NCBI GenBank assembly: GCA_020746875.1
Contig: JAGTJL010000003.1
Coordinates: 1,984,001 to 2,048,000, forward strand
Length of the DNA: 64,000 nucleotides
Direction of reading: 5' to 3'
Source: Rhexocercosporidium sp. MPI-PUGE-AT-0058
Lineage: Eukaryota > Ascomycota > Leotiomycetes > Helotiales
Shown: in pieces, positions 6,149-61,894 of the stretch
Layout: every line of letters begins with the position of its first letter
Numbering within the stretch: the first letter of the stretch is position 1
Program-made: the position numbers and the translations under genes
Notes under the pieces: model-generated
What the model was told of the DNA's origin: nothing
Databases searched by the model: none
Seen by the model: only the letters and a program-made list of their open reading frames with translations

Positions 6149-9100
6149 GTTTGTGAAGCTCTCACGGTGAGCCTACGCCAGCCCTCCAGCTCTGGAATCT
6201 CCACTATTCCCGAAAGAGCTTGGCTGCCGTCAGCTGAGTCGTGGCAGGAGGAGTCTACATCCAGTAAATAGAAGCCATTAAAGAGAGTCTTTAGTATAGA
6301 AATGTAGAGAGAAAGCAAAATGCGGATATAGAAATGAAATAAGTATGTCATTTGCCTAGGCTTTTCTTGTAGCGCCATGATAAGCATTGCTTACCATCCA
6401 AGAATCAAGAAAAGCAGGACAAGTGGGCACTGACACAGGAAAGCACTTACTCTGTATGAAAACGGTTATAAACAGAAATTGAAATATACTACCAACAGAA
6501 CATGGCTACGCCAACTGGTAGAAAGTGAAGTATAATAGAGGAACCGGTGTTCATTGATAGATGATGTTGGCAGACTAAGAAGTCAGGTTTATGAGATGAG
6601 CGCTAGGCTCCATCAGGCCAAGAGGCTTTCCTGCTGTCCAAGGTCACGATCAACTGAAGCTTGAGAATTTCCAACGTCGCCTTCTTGCCAGTTTTCGGTC
6701 CACTTGAGTTCCTGCAGTATTTCCAAAGACTCAAGCTCTCTTCAGAGCCCTTGAATTGTCATCCCATATTCGTCTCAGCTAGACTTTCGAGCTCCTGATT
6801 CTTTCCTCTACACTCTTACATAGCAGCGGTGAGGAGTCGAGAAGTTTGTCAAATTCTATGGGCACGATATGCTTGCAAGCGCAAGGATTCTACCCTCTGT
6901 TGAAGTATAGATACGAGATTTCAGAATCTAAAGCTTGTTGCGATCGGCAAGACACACGAGCCATAGCTACTGAAAACGTCGCTGAACCATCTCTTGGAAG
7001 GAACGGCTTGTCCCGAACGTATCCTGAGAGAACATTTGTCTAGATTTCAAGATAGTTTGCTGTAGAGACAAACTCTCCTCGCGGGAGTCACCCGGAAGAC
7101 GCGACTGTTTCTCGATTCCTGCACTTCATTCCGTTGTCTCACTACTTACTACTGTCATTATCTCCCCACGGGCGCGACGATCTCTCAACGCCTATCTTGG
7201 CGAGAAAGTCTCACACCGCGGGGATATATGTATGAAGATCCCTAGCAGTAGCTTTCACAGGAGTGCACTTTCAGAGTTTCAGTCTATGTTCACTGCGTGG
7301 CTTGTGGATGACAGCCGTCGACACCGAGGTTTTATTTTCGAAGTTCAGAATGCACGAGATAGAGACATGGTTTCTAATGGCCTCGACTCACAACTACCGA
7401 GGTGTTTTCACGACATAGAGTTTCGGTAGATGATGAGTCCTCGAGGGGTTACAGAAGCTGATCAATGGTGAGGAGGAAGTTCGAGGAGAAAAGAGTTTGT
7501 TTCACTAGTGCTGCACGAAGGCTAAGTCACGGAAGCTATCTGTTCTCCCCGCAGCCCTCAAGGCGAGGGGAAAGAAGGTGAAACCACTGCGAGGAGGTCT
7601 GGCAGAGACCATCGTCGTTCGGATATGCAACTTTCGCACACAAGACGTATATCATCCTACGTTGTTGTCTTTGGAAGATCTAAAAATATCTCTTGCTACC
7701 CGTTACCAGCAAATGCAGGACGTTCGCGTGCCAAGCAAGGTTCTTTTTGGCTGAATGGGAGATGTTTGACAATTATTTCCACTGCAGATGTGCGTCTATG
7801 GTGGCAGCAGAAATGAAGTACGGTGTGCTACACGACAGGAAGATAGGAACATATGAAATATGGCTTGGGGGTTGTGGGTTGGGACGAACAGTTTCTGTTT
7901 TCTTCATGCATGATGCCCAGACCAGATCGATGAACCCAAAGCATAAGATTCCGGCCGCCTGTATAGCGGTTCGTGTGAACACATCTCTTAAGGTTAATTT
8001 TCACTTGGATGCACAGAACGTTTGGTTTACCTAGAGTCTGGGCTTTGCTATGTGGGATCTTCGAATGAGCGGTGTTGGGATGATGGTTTGGTGTTATTGG
8101 ATCAACGCGAAGCAAAATTGTGGATGCCCCCTTAGCACGATGAATTTCCCGCCTCAACAGAAAGGGGGAAAATTGAGGGAAATGGCTGGTGTATATCACA
8201 TCCTGGTGATAACGCCTAGGTCTCGGTACTTGGTCTTCGGTGTTGTCTAAGACCAGAAGTGGATGAGGCTCGTGTTTTCGCAATTGGACGGTGGTTGGAT
8301 AGATGATCTGACTTGTCGTCCGGGTTTAAACTTATCGATCAGATTGTCATATCTTTCTACAGCGAGAGACGAGTTACAGGAATATCGTCGTCAGTGGTCA
8401 GATGAGATCTGGAGGTCAGACGATTTGGGCCGAGCGGAGAGGACATGACAGAAGGCTGGGGGTGGTCGGGTCTTCGATCTTTGGCGCGATGAAAAAGAAA
8501 GCAGCATCCGAGAGCTCAGATCGACCATCGATGGAGTTTTCCTTATTCCGGAGGATTTTCAAGGGTCATGGATAGGCTGTGTCAAGATGTTGGTGATTGG
8601 TGGTTGGAAAGGAGCGCCGATGGCTGGAAATGCGCGTGAAATCCGGATGTTTGTTTTGAATATTGTGAAGGTGGTTGGATTGATGGCTGGTGACTTATTT
8701 GATGGTTGTATGAGCGGGAGATTCTGAGGTTGATATTACTTTGGTGAGGCAATGAGCGTTTCAACGATTTCCCGACGGCGGCGGGAGCTTCCGTACGCTG
8801 TTTTCAGATATCACAAGTCAGGAGAGAGTTTTGAGTGAGAAGGAAATGAGCGGAGGATAATACCGAGGAAGAACTGTTGAAGTTGCTAGGTTTCCTCATG
8901 GCTCTGGCTCTATATGGCTGTGTACTAAGTTTGCAACAGTAGCACGGCGTCGCCAGCCTCGAAGTGTTCATATTGCAGCTTTATTATTGCTGCATTAGGA
9001 CGATCAACTCGACACGATGGACGATTAGTCGGCTGGTAAAAGGAAGGGGATGCATTATTTTGACACGGGAAGTCGGCGACCAGTTTTCAGTTCACATGCA

Positions 9101-19728: not shown

Positions 19729-22700
19729 CTACTCGTCATCCGAGTCTGCCATAGGTGTATCAGCTGTATCACCGTTGGCCGTTGCAGGTGAGTCTTCTTT
19801 TGCAGGTGCGGGAGCGGCAGCAGCATCCTCATCTTCGTCGTCATCATCCGAATCGATCATTGCCCGTCGACTCTTGCGTTTCGAGGCTGCAGGAGCGGAA
19901 ACAGTCTCTTCCTCGCTTCCTGCATCGATGTCCATATCGTTGGCATCATCTCCAACATCATCGTCCATTTCCCTTGCCGCAGCGGCCTCACCATCACTAT
20001 CACTCTCCACCACAATCTCACTACTCTTGAATTTGTTGGGCTTCTCTTGAGCCGCCTTTCTCGCCAATTTCCTTTTCTTTGGCTTGGGCTTTTCCTCGTC
20101 GCTATCGCCACCACTGCCCCGGCGATTTCTGCGTCGGGGCTCCCCTCCGCTCTCATCATCATCTGTGATTCCGTCATCGTTCTTCTTCTTTCGCTTCCCA
20201 CCAGCGCCACCAGCGCGAGGCTTCTTCTTCCGCTTGACTTTGTCGCCAGTTTCGCTGTCGGTGGTGAGCTCTGCAGCTTCCCTAGCTCGTTCTTCTTCGT
20301 ATCGTGCATCGGCCAACTCTCGGTCTCTCTCAGCAATCTTCTGTCTCTCCTCGGCAATCTTGAGTTTACGCGCACGCTCGGCTTCTTCGGCAGCAACTCG
20401 GGCGTCTTCGCGTTTCTTGAGCTCAATTTCTCGGGCCTGCTTCGAAGCGAGCAATTTCTCGGCATTTTTCTCCTCAAACTCCTTCTGGGCCTGTATTGAG
20501 CGATCGAGTTGCTTACGCATGGTGTTTCGCGCCATGTTCGCTCGCTGTTCGATGTCGTGTTTTGGGTAAGGTGTCGAAGGATGTTGAGCAATAGCCTCCA
20601 GAGATTCAATGGCTTCCTCCAGTCCATCAGCGGCAGCTTGCACCTCGGCTAGTGTTCTTTGCATTTCGGTAAGACTGTAGACGGTCGCAGCAAGTTGGAT
20701 CTGCACAAAAGCAACGTTGAACTTGAAATGTATCTGATCGGGGGCAATTGCTAGAGCCTAGAACTTGTTAATGTGAAGTTCATTAGGTAGCGACTTCAAA
20801 CTCACCTTCTGAGAGTAGTCCAAAGCATTTCTGAATGCCTGTGAATTCTTCTCTGCCTTTCCCTTCAAGAGCCATGTTCGACCTAGACAAGCAAGTATTT
20901 GTGCATCGTGCGATCGGTCCTTCGACAATGCAAGCTCGTAATGCTCAATAGCTTTAGAATATTGTCTCAACTCCGCAAAAATGTGACCAAGGTTGACGAA
21001 GACGCTTGGATCCTTGACAGTGTCCCTGACCTTGATGAAGATCGTCAAAGCAGTCTTGTAATCTTTCTTGTCTTCTACCAAGGCAATAGCGATGCCTTGA
21101 GCAGCATATGCATTCTGGGGGTCCAGTTGCAGAGCCTTTTCGAAGAACTCCACGGCCTTAATGTACATGTTGCTTCGCTTTTGCTTCTCCTGTTCCGTCT
21201 CGCGACGCATTTCACGCGCGCTCATGAGGTAGAGATTACCCATGCCAATCAGAGCATATCGATCATGCTTCTCATATTGCTGTAGTGTGTGCTTGTAATG
21301 ACGAAGCTCGGGATCTTCGGAAACATGGCCCTTCTTCCTCGAGTTGACCTTCCCAAGATACCAGCCGTACAGTGCTCGCACTTCCAGATCTGCAGAAGAG
21401 TCTTGGTAGAGTTTGCCGATAGCCTTGGGACCATCTTCTGTTGGATTTTGACGCAGAGCGATGTATGCAAGCCGAGTTCTCGCATCGGTGTAGTCACTGT
21501 GACGGGTGAGCAGACCTTCGTAGACTGTTTTGGCTTCATCGAGTAGTCCACTGGCCTCGTAGGTTCGGCCTAGATTGTAACTGATGGTCGTTACAAGAGC
21601 ATCCGTGTCCATCTCCTCTTGCTTCTCTCCGACCTTAATACAAGCGCTCAATGCAACTTGAAACATGTCTCGGGCCTGTTCATACTTCTCGGCTTGATAG
21701 TAGAAACATCCAATGTTATTGAGGAGCTGAGGTGGTAGACCTTCGCGAAGAGTATTCTTGAAATTGGCTTCCTCTTCTGGGTCTTTGGGCTTCTCCTCTT
21801 CAGGAATCTGATCATATTCGAGTTGTTCGACTTGCTGCAAGCATTGCAAGCTTTTCTCGGGTTGATCGGTCTCGTAGAGGCGTGCCAGATTCAGAAGAAC
21901 GGATGCATCTGGTACAAGGTTCTTCTTTGAATCTTTCCAGGCTGTTCGCACACTCTCCAGATACCCAACAGCCTTCTTGAATTCGGTCGACTTTTCCTCT
22001 TTAGCACCGGTTGGCTGGCTATGAAATACCTCCTCGGCATACAGAGTGCCTAAGAGAATCATGGCTTCGACGTTTTTTGATTGTTGAATGATCTTCTCCA
22101 GTCTCAACTTGGCCTCTCCAAAGTCGCTCTTTAGCACGGACAGTTGAGCTGCGCCGAATTTTGCAGGAAGATATCCACGATCAGCTCCACCTCTGGCCTC
22201 ATCAGCTCGTCGGTAGTAGTCCGCTGCTCGCTCGTATTCGTCCTCGTAATGCTCCTTTCGAGCCAATAGATACCATCCGTCACTTGCAATAGCATTTACA
22301 TCCGTGTATTGAATGGCCTTGTGTGCGAGAGTATCGACATTGGGTAACGACTTTCGTGACAAAAAGTATCCAGCGAATGTGGCACAGGTTAATGGTAGGT
22401 CCTTATCCGCCTTGAACGCCTTTTGTGTGTATTCGGTCATTGCCTTCTTGTACAGCTTGAGGAACTCTGGTCCGTTTGTCGGTACATGGGAGCTCTGATC
22501 GAGGTAGAACAGACCGAGGAGGATATTTGCGATCTTCGAATCCGGATTGATCTCCAGGGCACGCTCCCAGGCATTCTTTGCGTCTTCCTTGAATCCCAAC
22601 ATCCAGAAGCAGCAGCCAATCCCAATTCGTGGATCTGGGTCTACCAATTCCGGCATCTTGAGAAGAGCGTCCTGGTAGCCTTCCAGCGCCTCCGCATATT

Positions 22701-23412
22701 TTCCCAACGAGAACAACGCCCTTGCCTTTCCCAGCTGTGCCATCATATTTCTTTGCCCAGAGACTCGAAGGGCATCTTCAAAAGACTTGAGTGACGCTCG
22801 TAGAATATCAGCCTTGTCTTGATCCAACGCGCCAGGTGCTGAAGACTTCGAAGGAGGCTGAAGAGATGCTTTGAGGAGCTGGAGGACACCGCGTGCCAGA
22901 AAAAGGGGAGGGAATCCAGGATTTATTCGCAGTGCCTCGTTGAGGGTTGATGTCGAGAGCTGCAGATAGTATTCCTTGGTCTTCGCCTCCGATACCAATG
23001 CGCCTTCTGGGGCAACTCGAGGAGCCTCTCTGCTTTTCCATAAATACATCCAGCATAAGCATGTAAGCATGCTGAGCTTCTCTTTTGGTCCGCCCTTCAT
23101 GGCCTGCCCACCCTTGATCAGCATCTCGATTGCGTGGTCAACCTTCTTCTGCTTCGCATATGCTAGGGACACAGTCATCCAATATGTTCGTGCAGCGCCT
23201 TCGTTTTCCAGCAGAGTACACAGTTCGGTCGGATCATCCAGCAGATCTTCGAGATCAACTTCCACAGCCTGATCATCATCTTCACCCTGAACCGGAATAT
23301 CTATCGCAGAGGGGATGTCCGAAAATCGTTTGCTCATGACCCTATGCCCCGGGGAAACAGGAGAATGCCCATTTGGCCCGCCATTCAAACCTACATTTTC
23401 AACTGCCGACAT
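19729..23412 (-). CDS. CTR9: CTR9, TPR subunit of the PAF1 elongation complex
   Basis: Two exons, 23412-20806 and 20757-19729, give 1211 residues, the usual size for filamentous fungi. The 48-nt intron (gtgagt to ctag) joins DYSQK to ALAIAPDQIHFKFNVAFVQ, a conserved CTR9 stretch. CTR9 is the scaffold of the PAF1 complex, which travels with RNA polymerase II and supports H2B ubiquitylation and H3K4/K36 methylation. Visible features: an acidic N-terminal block (VDLEDLLDDPTEL), then about fifteen TPR repeats spread over residues 80-860, for example YAEALEGYQDALLKMPELVDP and YSKAIEHYELALSKD. A long charged coiled coil follows from about 915 to 1030, and the tail is Lys/Asp/Glu-rich with KRKKK-type nuclear signals and alternating acidic runs. 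It stands in tandem with SNF2 upstream on the same strand. Confidence 0.96.
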
Positions 23413-24293
23413 TCTAGATGTGGATTCGTATGAGGCTTGGTGTCGATGGTGAGATGAGGTGATTTGAACTCGAGCGCGTCAAGGCGCAGACACTTGACGC
23501 AATTAGGAGAGTGTGTGTGCTAACAGGCGCGGGACATCTGATCGAAACTAGAGCGTGATCAATAATAAAGAAGAATTATCTGCGAAACCACCAAGAGATT
23601 GTAGTTGGGTGAAATGGTGTTCGAAAGGCTGTATGAAATTTGAATTCTTAGGATTGGCAAGGTCGCGATCTCGTTCAGCCTTGGAGCTAAGCCTATTCTG
23701 TCCAGCAACAACCAGCTTTCATCTCAAGACTGAAAATGAAAGGCCATGATACTCAAATTTCAGCTAGAACCATGGAGTAGAATTTCTGAGTATCCATACC
23801 AGCTGAGAAATCAACACAGGAGTGGTAGCAAAGAATGCGTCTCTTCCACAAAAATGACAGCGAGGCAGATCCTAGAGTAGCCACAAGTCATGCTCGGGAG
23901 CAGTGGCACATCCAAAGAACTCAGTACCGCTCAAAAGTTTAAGCACCTTCTAAAGTTATAGCTGGGAGGTTTGGGGGCCTTCCGCCCGCTTTATACCCCG
24001 ACAGCACACTCCCTTAGGAGAGTTGGCAGGTCACACTCAAAATGGTCTAGGCTCCACAAGTCATACATCTTCATTGTTTCTCTACTAAAGTACAATCTAG
24101 GCAAATTAGCCCAAAGCAAGTCTGCAATGCCCCACAGCAAAAGGTTTAATGAATCCCCAAGTGTGTTCGCCTGTGTAACGCCAGTTTCTTATCCACACTC
24201 CATACCAGCACCGAATATGCAAACTCCTCCCTCCAACGAAGCTATCGTAAAAACATAACCACCACCAGCCAATTACTGAGAACAAACTTGCTT
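23413..24293. other. SNF2-CTR9 intergenic region
   Basis: About 0.88 kb holding the CTR9 promoter and the SNF2 3' end, both on the minus strand. Open frames are short and unconvincing, and I see no RNA gene. Confidence 0.6.
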
Positions 24294-59464: not shown

Positions 59465-59749
59465 TTACGAAGCGCTGCTAACCATCATCGTCATCATCTT
59501 CTGCCACGCATAACGAACAGTTCCGAGCAAAATGTAGAGCACTGCACCCAGGACAGCCAGGAAAGCCAGGAGGTCGACAGGAACAAAGATGGCTGCGAGC
59601 AAGAGTCCCATCCCCATCTTCCGCATCCATTGGATACGGGCATCTGAGATATCCTTGCCAGAGAGCTGGTCCTCCTTTGCAGTGGTCCTCCTGGACTGGG
59701 TATCATAGTCTGAGTCCTGAGATGGGTCGTGACTCTCCTCGTCATCTTG
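59465..59749 (-). other. In-frame 94-codon extension after the TPR-DnaJ stop codon
   Basis: Directly after the TGA at 59752-59750 the same frame stays open for 94 codons to TAA at 59467-59465. I checked this codon by codon. The peptide starts acidic and polar (QDDEESHDPSQDSDYD), passes a basic patch, then DARIQWMRKMGMG. A hydrophobic run of about 32 residues follows (LLLAAIFVPVDLLAFLAV and onward to GTVRYAW), ending in a basic-Met tail. This is a strong membrane-segment pattern with basic flanks. Codon choice is protein-like. The stop context is CAA-TGA-CAA. No GT donor in the preceding exon pairs in phase with the best downstream acceptor (59715, ctcag), so simple splicing does not remove the stop. 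Readthrough, a separate small gene, or a mutated sense codon are the options. Confidence 0.55.
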
Positions 59750-61894
59750 TCATTGGAATGAGAAGCCGCCGGGGAAGCCTTGTGGACCGCCTCGTTGTCG
59801 TCCTCCTCCTCCACCTGGCATTCCTCCTCCAAAGCTGTGGAAACCACCTCCTCCACCTCCACGTCCACCACCCATCTGTGCGCCGAACATTTGCATCAGA
59901 ATCTCGGGGTCGATGTTCATACCGCCGCCCATACCACCTCCACCGAATCCTTCCATTGGATCCATGAGGTCTTCGCCACTATCATATCGAGCTCGCTTTC
60001 TGTGATAACATTAGCACTTGTTACATATACCCAAGATCATCATTGCCAACTTACTCAGGATCACTCAAGGTCTCATAAGCCTCACCAATATCCTTGAATC
60101 TCTCCTCAGCCTGCTCGTCATCTCTGTTCTTATCAGGGTGATGAATGATAGCCGCCTTACGATAGGCCTTCTTGATCTGGTTCTCGTCGGCATCCTTCTC
60201 AATACTAAGAATCTTGTAGTAATCCTTCCGCTTGCTCTTCTTCAGCTCCAACTCAGCGTTCCGGACTTCCTTTGCAATACTGCCATCCGAAGGATCTTGC
60301 TCTTGCAGTTCCTTGAGTTCGCGAACAGCTGCTTCCCAGTTACCCGATTGGCCCAGAGCATTTGCCTTGGTCTTCTTGGCTTTGGTGTATGTAGGATCGA
60401 GAGCAACAGCACGTTCGCAGTCTTCGATTGCACCATTGTAGTCCTTAAGCTTGATTTTACACAGAGCTCTGTTTTGAAGGAGTTTTGAGTTCGTTCCCTT
60501 GTTCAAAGGATCAACCTCGAGTGCCTCAGAGTACTTGTCGATAGCTGCCTGCCAACGTCCAGCCTTGTAGTCCGTGTTTCCGTCAGACTTCATCCGGTCG
60601 AGCTTCTGAACCATTCTCAGATACTTGACGGCATTGCGGAAGTCTGGGTCGTAGTTGAGAGCTTGTCGGAAATGTTGAATGGCCTTCTCGTTGTCGCCTT
60701 GTGCATAGAGGGCTCGGCCACGCAGTACCAAAGCCTCGGGGTCTGCGCTGTTGTTTCTTAGTAGTGACATGGCCACATTTTGAGCATCGCCCAGAGCATT
60801 AACATTCCCCATCTTGAGATAGGCCTCTCCTCGCATCAGTTGCCACTTTCTAGGCTTCTGTGCTCCCAAACCAAGTAATTTCTCAGCCTGATCAAGAGCA
60901 TGCAGCGCCATAGAACCAGTGGTACCGTTTTTTAGAGCATCTTCCGCGACACCGATATGATGCAGCATAGCCTTCGCAGGAGCAATATCTTTCGCTGACG
61001 CAGGAGGCTGGATGCGGGCGTATGTGTCAAGAGCCTCTTGGGCACGGCCTAAACTGGTATAAATTCTTGCTAAACGGAGGAGGATCTTCGGATTGTTGGG
61101 ATCCAGCTCGTCGGCTCTGGTGCAGTCCTCCAAGGCATTGATGTATTGGCCATTTGAAATATATGCAGCTGCTCGATTGCTGAGATATGTGGCTGATGAC
61201 GGCTGTGCTTCAACGGCTATAGCAAATTTACATGTCAGCTGTGACTCTGCGCACAATTCAACTGCGGTGGTAGCATACCTTTGGTATATTCTTCAATGGC
61301 CTTCTTGTACTCCTTTGCCTTGTAGAACTTATTCCCGGCAGCCTTGAACGCTTCAGCGTCCTCTGCCGTAGGTGGGGACGCCGCTGCAGGACTCGTAGGA
61401 TTGGATTTATGAGGAGGAGGAACTGGACCTTCCCCATTCGAAGCCTGAGCAGGTGTCCCATTCGGCTTGGGCGAGTCGAAGGCACCGGGCATGTTTGCTT
61501 GTGGTGGGGGTGAGGTTGGAGCACCGTTGAGGCCCTCGCTGTCAATGTCCATTCGATCAGAGTCGGACGACATATTGGCAGCGCGCGCAGAGAGTTTCCG
61601 CAACTGATCTGGAGGCAGGTTTAAGGGGTGGGTATTCGGGTCGTAGGGGTGTCGTGGTGTTTTTGTGTTGGCTTTGGGGAAGCTGCGGCTGCTTCTAGAA
61701 GATCCTTGCCCTTGCTTGGAATTTTCTTCGCGGGCTGCCTTGGAGGGTTTCGAGGACGAGGAGGATGAGGTTGCGGGTGTCGTAGATTTCTTTATGGGCG
61801 ACCGCGACCGGGATGAGGCAGAGGCAGTGTCGTCGTTGTCGCTGTCGGAGGTCTTCTTGGAGGATTTCTTGGGTGACTTGGAGAAGAAGTTCAT
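59750..61894 (-). CDS. TPR-DnaJ co-chaperone (DNAJC7-like)
   Basis: Three exons, 61894-61279, 61216-60055 and 59999-59750, give 675 residues. Proteins of this type bind Hsp70 and Hsp90 through TPR repeats and stimulate Hsp70 ATPase through the J domain. Residues 1-170 are Ser/Pro/Lys-rich and disordered. TPR units run from about 175 ([23 protein letters not shown], spanning intron 1) to about 500, in two groups, the second beginning [20 protein letters not shown]. The J domain is at about 536-605, with KDYYKILSI, the HPD triad at 564-566 and [15 protein letters not shown] rebuilt across intron 2. The tail is Gly/Met-rich ([20 protein letters not shown]) and ends PGGFSFQ. This is a plausible natural end, but the TGA is followed by a 94-codon in-frame extension described separately. 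Length and order fit the cytosolic DNAJC7 class. Confidence 0.93.

Follow-up and report, generated by a model that had tools for sequence, protein, structure and literature searches.

In fungi, the functional stop-codon readthrough described in the accounts used here adds short peroxisomal signals to proteins (PMC4207609, PMC9549241), and the relevant parts of these sources report peroxisomal isoforms of PGK and GAPDH that arise in this way (Freitag 2012, cited in PMC9549241; Stiebler 2014, PMC4207609). The locus that we analyse here would follow the same plan, with a leaky UGA that allows one gene to produce, at a minor level, an isoform that is extended at its C-terminus and goes to a new location. 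As those reports present them, however, the fungal PGK and GAPDH extensions carry a PTS1 behind a UGA CU core, whereas the extension proposed here has 94 residues with a membrane segment, stands behind UGA CAA and would be reached by putative readthrough. The readthrough extensions of Drosophila and mosquitoes, as far as the cited portions describe them (PMC3840789, PMC5100048), share with our locus a conserved coding frame past a conserved stop; their support comes from comparative genomics and ribosome profiling, while ours comes from protein comparison and the DNA of one species.

In its domain order the protein resembles DNAJC7/Tpr2, in which TPR repeats are followed by a J domain. To our knowledge, the classical soluble DNAJC7/Tpr2 has no membrane tail. 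Tom70, Toc64 and OEP61 are known as permanent membrane proteins and are not known to have a J domain. As in these proteins, to judge from the sections of the literature available (PMC7583919, PMC3315527), the TPR repeats of the extended form proposed here would dock Hsp70/Hsp90 at a membrane, but, unlike theirs, the anchoring would be optional and depend on a leaky stop. Among the papers listed by a literature survey, none describes a membrane-anchored isoform of this kind in its title or the opening of its abstract.

The window, i.e. the whole stretch of 64,000 nucleotides of Rhexocercosporidium DNA that was analysed, contains on its minus strand a gene for a TPR-J-domain protein of the DNAJC7 type, which our gene model divides into three exons encoding 675 residues between the ATG at 61894 and the TGA at 59752-59750 (Table 1). 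Pfam recognised a TPR array (TPR_1, 1.2e-32) followed by a J domain (DnaJ, 9.1e-23). Among the matches listed, the nearest named homologs are proteins of Cadophora, Rhynchosporium and Diplocarpon with 85-92% identity, which places the window in a helotialean fungus, and several homologs were named DnaJ subfamily C member 7 by their source. The sequence bears out two features on which the original prediction was built: the TPR-DnaJ frame ends in TTC CAA TGA followed by CAA GAT, with CAA on both sides of the stop, and beyond the TGA the same frame stays open for 94 codons, up to the TAA at 59467-59465.

Table 1. Features of the TPR-J-domain gene and of the frame that follows its stop codon (positions in the window)
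Feature	Position	Strand	Basis
Exon 1 (start ATG)	61279..61894	-	Gene model; first 20 residues the same in P0001, P0002 and P0003
Intron 1, 62 nt, GTATGC...CTGAC...TAG	61217..61278	-	Gene model, splice signals
Exon 2, encoding the TPR repeats and the larger part of the J domain	60055..61216	-	Gene model, Pfam
Intron 2, 55 nt, GTAAGT...CTAAT...CAG	60000..60054	-	Gene model, splice signals
Exon 3, encoding the last part of the J domain and a Gly-rich C-terminus, ...GFPGGFSFQ, the normal end of the soluble form	59753..59999	-	Gene model, homolog C-termini
TGA in the context CAA TGA CAA GAT, proposed readthrough site	59750..59752	-	Sequence; yeast context ranking
Extension residues 1-27, acidic linker	59669..59749	-	Gene model, alignment, charge count
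Extension residues 28-44, ...ISDARIQWMRK conserved in Helotiales, basic residues abutting the core	59618..59668	-	Alignment
Extension residues 45-78, hydrophobic core with central P-V-D-L	59516..59617	-	Hydropathy; AlphaFold2
Extension residues 79-94, C-terminal end, first 12 residues net positive	59468..59515	-	Charge count
TAA, second stop in frame	59465..59467	-	Sequence

All the parts that had been described for the extension were found, namely a linker, basic residues, a 34-residue stretch without Lys or Arg and a basic end. The linker has a net charge of -6 up to the N-side flank of the core, and Kyte-Doolittle hydropathy in the core reaches a maximum of 2.71 over a 19-residue span. AlphaFold2, run on 11 sequences, modelled one helix at residues 36-54 of the tail and another at 58-93, interrupted at F-V-P (55-57), with 10-residue pLDDT means of 84-92 across the core and low values elsewhere (mean pLDDT of the modelled C-terminus 62, pTM 0.28). 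With a proline in the middle of its core and basic residues near both ends, the tail as modelled could be a single span with a kink, or else a hairpin whose two ends lie in the cytosol. The predicted membrane-anchor architecture is supported, and it is the term ‘tail-anchored’ that may be slightly off, since the mid-core proline and the helix-break-helix model are also compatible with a hairpin. A structure search of the PDB with the modelled C-terminus returned no match at E <= 10, and the tail alone hit no Pfam family. Direct search of the protein database gave five candidates, none at E <= 0.01, and thus no relative, while PDB sequences gave three weak matches (best E 0.072). Within its own genome (62.7 Mb, 60 contigs) the tail matched itself alone, with no second copy; a search of genome contigs gave a single cyanobacterial locus at 31% identity, and one of viral contigs gave nothing.

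The length of the open frame is not remarkable as evidence on its own: in 264 kb of the genome, three of 25 long-ORF ends have 94 or more open codons in frame behind them, and in one of these three cases the frame crosses an intron. Its codon use, however, is protein-like, as had been proposed. The log-odds of the tail, 0.17 bits per codon, exceed those of every one of the 181 wrong-frame ORFs (94-250 codons) that lie within long genes and are above those of 72% of 256 chunks of the same size (94 codons) taken from long ORFs. We also scored the continuation past 81 coding-like ORF ends, a set from which the TPR-DnaJ gene is absent because its last exon is shorter than the cut-off, and found a stronger continuation than the tail at two of them (window 23478-20760 and L029); from their sequence we take both to be ordinary introns in phase, 48 and 75 nt long, with the stop inside.

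These two loci and a third deserve a description of their own. At 20760-23478 of the window, on the minus strand, a 906-codon ORF runs to a TAG and is followed by 342 in-frame codons with a strong coding signal; an ordinary-looking 48-nt in-phase intron, GTGAGT...TAG, at 20758-20805 on the same strand has this TAG at its 3' end. In L029, a 418-codon ORF in a J-domain region reaches a TGA that 475 coding-like in-frame codons follow, and a 75-nt in-phase intron at 8528-8602 (GTAAGT...CTAAC...CAG) explains the continuation. In L011, near 2592, a 123-codon J-domain ORF is followed by a TAG and 26 coding-like in-frame codons.

To see how far the tail is shared, we searched for homologs of the whole protein; of 7996 candidates scored, 939 passed E <= 0.001. 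We read the last 110 residues of each of the 120 matches listed and sorted the types of C-terminus by our own judgement. At this protein level, 102 have the normal C-terminus, seven are truncated and 11 have other ends. Ten of these 11 have a tail made up of a linker, a hydrophobic core and an end with positive charge. Two of these, from Coleophoma (P0010) and a member of the Mollisiaceae (P0030), belong to what we take to be Helotiales (Leotiomycetes); the other eight are presumably Sordariomycetes and come from Xylaria (P0065), Colletotrichum sojae (P0084), Monosporascus (P0092, P0096, P0105, P0120), Corynascus (P0099) and Tolypocladium (P0107).

As a null for the tail scores we used 1000 block shuffles in which linker, core and end each retain their composition. 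The window tail scored 53.5 bits against P0030 and 46.7 bits against P0010, where the best shuffles reached 24.3 and 14.7 bits, respectively, and since both scores exceed all shuffles, the sequences make homology of the tail within the Helotiales firm. This conservation also makes it very probable that the tail is real coding sequence. Among the Sordariomycetes, P0099 (17.4 bits) and P0107 (17.6 bits) scored above all 1000 shuffles, and P0084 (16.0 bits) and P0065 (9.6 bits) above 999 of them. The Monosporascus tails showed no excess over the null against the window tail, with 36, 80, 48 and 37 of 1000 shuffles scoring as well; they were retained for their architecture and their by-eye likeness to the Xylaria tail. 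A further candidate, P0100 from Apiospora phragmitis, was rejected as tail-bearing, 108 of 1000 shuffles matching its score against the window; it has a Gly-rich region and then a hydrophobic C-terminus unlike the other tails, which an error of the gene finder or a shifted reading frame in the tail may explain.

The ten tails have much of their layout in common. The linker is net negative in nine (P0099 has +3), all ten carry a net positive flank behind the core, and the core spans 31-35 residues without Lys or Arg in seven, an Arg at one and the same place splitting it in P0092, P0105 and P0120. In the seven tails with an unsplit core, a Lys or Arg always precedes the core immediately, and five of them have a net positive flank ahead of it (P0010 has 0 and P0107 has -1). 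A P-x-[DEQ]-[LV] motif is present in eight of ten tails, all except P0099 and P0107, and Y-[IV]-[CS] in nine, P0030 having F-I-S and the window Y-I-L. Because four of the eight comparisons (four of nine when P0100 is counted) exceed the null and the architecture is shared, homology across the two classes also appears likely from the sequences. The extension is thus conserved beyond chance at the protein level, in the Helotiales first of all. Nor is the normal end a sequencing error, as judged from its being common to 102 of the 120 listed homologs; by the same protein-level count, a stop is kept at this place in relatives. The order of TPR-J region, stop and tail in one frame was verified in this species, and the relatives were compared as proteins.

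Among the 102 homologs with a normal end, the last residue is Gln in 30 and Gly in 53, and it largely follows the clade: those ending in Gln are, we assume, mostly Leotiomycetes and those ending in Gly mostly Sordariomycetes, with another end in the powdery mildews. Where the last codon is one for Gln, the stop has C at -3 and A at -2.

A ribosome-profiling study in yeast (PMC8087045) ranks, in its Table 2, the states of the stop context by permissiveness at each position. By this part of the study, CAA UGA CAA GAU has the most or joint most permissive yeast state at every position from -3 to +6, so that in this stretch the context is better than the original prediction had stated. Further on, the same ranking finds the favoured U missing at +7, a second-ranked state at +8 and, with U, the least permissive one at +9; the effect of A at -1 and -2 is absent from the study's own genome-wide medians, in the portion consulted. 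The resemblance to the tobamovirus-type stop-CARYYA holds for its CAR part and fails for YYA. The UGA CU core of fungal readthrough, as given in the relevant section of PMC4207609, is absent at the window stop. UGAC alone is not rare in this genome, since it closes six of the 81 coding-like ORFs, and five folds of the RNA after the stop gave no stable structure (z +1.6, +1.7, -0.8, +0.6 and -0.7). Because the context is permissive by the yeast ranking and no CTRAY accompanies the 17 AGs beyond the stop (see below), readthrough is our first choice for the link between the TPR-J protein and the tail, and we give it about an even chance.

The main rival, a serious one that we nevertheless disfavour and consider less likely than not, is a facultative intron with a donor in the Gly-rich end and an acceptor past the TGA, whose splicing would give the anchored form and whose retention the soluble one. 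In-phase splicing had been considered unavailable with the obvious acceptor, which turned out not to hold in general: counting GT/AG pairs of 45-400 nt that are in phase and remove the TGA, we found 72, of which ten fit GTRNG...YAG (e.g. GTATGA at 59922 to GACTCAG at 59709). The GT sites in exon 3 are in phase 1, with one exception. The ten consensus pairs, however, span 213-393 nt as against 52-130 nt for real introns. The shortest in-phase pair (59814 to 59745, 69 nt) has a CTCAT that lies 13 nt ahead of the AAG, and with this pair the frame would resume right past the stop; against it stand a poor donor, GTGGAG, and the AAG acceptor itself. The tails of P0030 and P0010 seem to resume just past the place of the stop, as this pair would have it, and both share an acidic D-D-D with the window; this agreement is a point in favour of splicing. 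More generally, the ten tail-bearing proteins look intron-joined, nine of them without the usual last residues and P0099 keeping F-H-F-S, and judging by their sequences the tail of these public proteins seems to be joined by an intron that skips the normal end. That both of the stronger continuations among the 81 ORF ends read as introns favours splicing too.

Other observations speak against an intron. CTRAY is the intron branch consensus, and the introns here fit it: it occurs 10-20 nt before the AG in all four real introns considered (two of the TPR-DnaJ gene and two of the neighbouring exportin-T gene), whereas none of the 17 AGs past the stop has it 6-60 nt upstream. Its chance in a random 44-nt stretch is 0.12, and the looser YTNAY, as CTCAT, does lie upstream of the first acceptors past the stop. 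The tail junctions vary even within Monosporascus, P0092 differing from P0096, P0105 and P0120. Proteins from jgi/lgn sources make up 21 of the 120 listed homologs; 18 of them reach the C-terminus across the exon 2/3 junction, and all of these end normally, with the tail in none. Fifteen of the 18 are on contigs of at most 4.4 kb (P0076, P0083 and P0089 are on longer ones), which suggests that these 15 are transcript-like, although the jgi/lgn proteins could also come from a splice-aware caller on genomic DNA and would then tell little about transcripts; they are moreover cluster representatives, among which a rare isoform could escape. A search with the C. sojae tail (661 candidates) found, at that sensitivity, C. 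sojae itself alone at E <= 10, and C. trifolii (P0109) has a normal end among the matches listed. Since the C. sojae tail stood alone in that search, tail-bearing gene models look sporadic, and we lean to the view that gene finders invent introns in these models to reach a conserved frame.

As a separate observation on the jgi/lgn homologs, P0007, P0012, P0014, P0015, P0016, P0019, P0023, P0024 and P0028 share an inner start Met, M-D/E/S-V/I-D..., which lies about 110 residues inside the annotated proteins.

The remaining alternatives are much weaker. The tail could be a relic, in which an ancestral anchored protein gained a stop and the sequence behind it is decaying, or the likeness could be that of generic membrane tails, and it is true that the four Monosporascus tails and the Apiospora C-terminus are indistinguishable from block shuffles when compared with the window tail. 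We hold this to be improbable in view of a tail that is recognisable in other families and coding-like here, of a normal end found in 102 of 120 listed homologs, and of two best tail matches that top all composition-matched shuffles by more than 29 bits. Still less probable is a tail translated on its own as a small membrane protein, either through re-initiation or from a transcript whose start is internal or separate: an ATG within the tail would give a 53-residue membrane peptide, but the conserved segment begins 5' of this ATG and no start codon is kept besides the Met of the GMG motif, which P0010 and P0030 share and which, among the eight Sordariomycete tails, P0065 alone has. No stand-alone relative of the window tail was found among proteins of 0.55-1.75 times 94 residues. 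A-to-I editing in sexual tissue, which would change the stop from UGA to UGG, is very improbable, for although the sections consulted describe stop-loss editing in Sordariomycetes (PMC11156358, PMC6794485), fungal editing strongly prefers a U 5' of the edited A and so favours UAG and UAA (PMC11156358), a preference that this UGA misfits because a G precedes the A, and, according to the part of PMC11156358 that concerns it, no genome-wide editing was identified in the apothecia of the Leotiomycete Botrytis cinerea.

If readthrough is the link, most ribosomes would halt at the leaky UGA, giving the soluble TPR-J protein of 675 residues, while a minority would insert an amino acid at the UGA and append 94 residues, made up of a flexible acidic linker, a short helix and the 34-residue hydrophobic segment with its adjoining basic residues. 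The extended form would be fixed to a membrane that faces the cytosol, the endoplasmic reticulum or the mitochondrial outer membrane, the choice between them being a guess, and there its TPRs and J domain would dock Hsp70/Hsp90 together with their clients. The data themselves show the gene with its stop, the open and coding-like frame, the likeness of the tail to tails of other Helotiales proteins and the conservation of the normal end; that readthrough joins the two parts, that the extended form sits at a membrane and what it does there are what we infer. The original prediction that one mRNA yields both a soluble and a membrane-anchored protein stands as regards a conserved, coding-like extension with the architecture of an anchor; as regards readthrough as the route to it, we consider the odds evenly balanced. 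More tentatively, and with somewhat less than even confidence, we propose that a programmed readthrough older than the split between Leotiomycetes and Sordariomycetes adds a conserved hydrophobic hairpin or anchor and so turns a soluble co-chaperone into a membrane-docked one.

Should this hold, readthrough would have a wider role, in that it supplies a core chaperone adaptor with a conserved membrane anchor of about 90 residues, and the fidelity of termination would be linked to membrane proteostasis. If the readthrough is indeed ancient, the efficiency of termination would set the share of chaperone capacity that is placed on the membrane. Even if splicing turns out to be the link, there would be a hidden second, membrane-bound form of this co-chaperone that is missing from most of the annotations listed.
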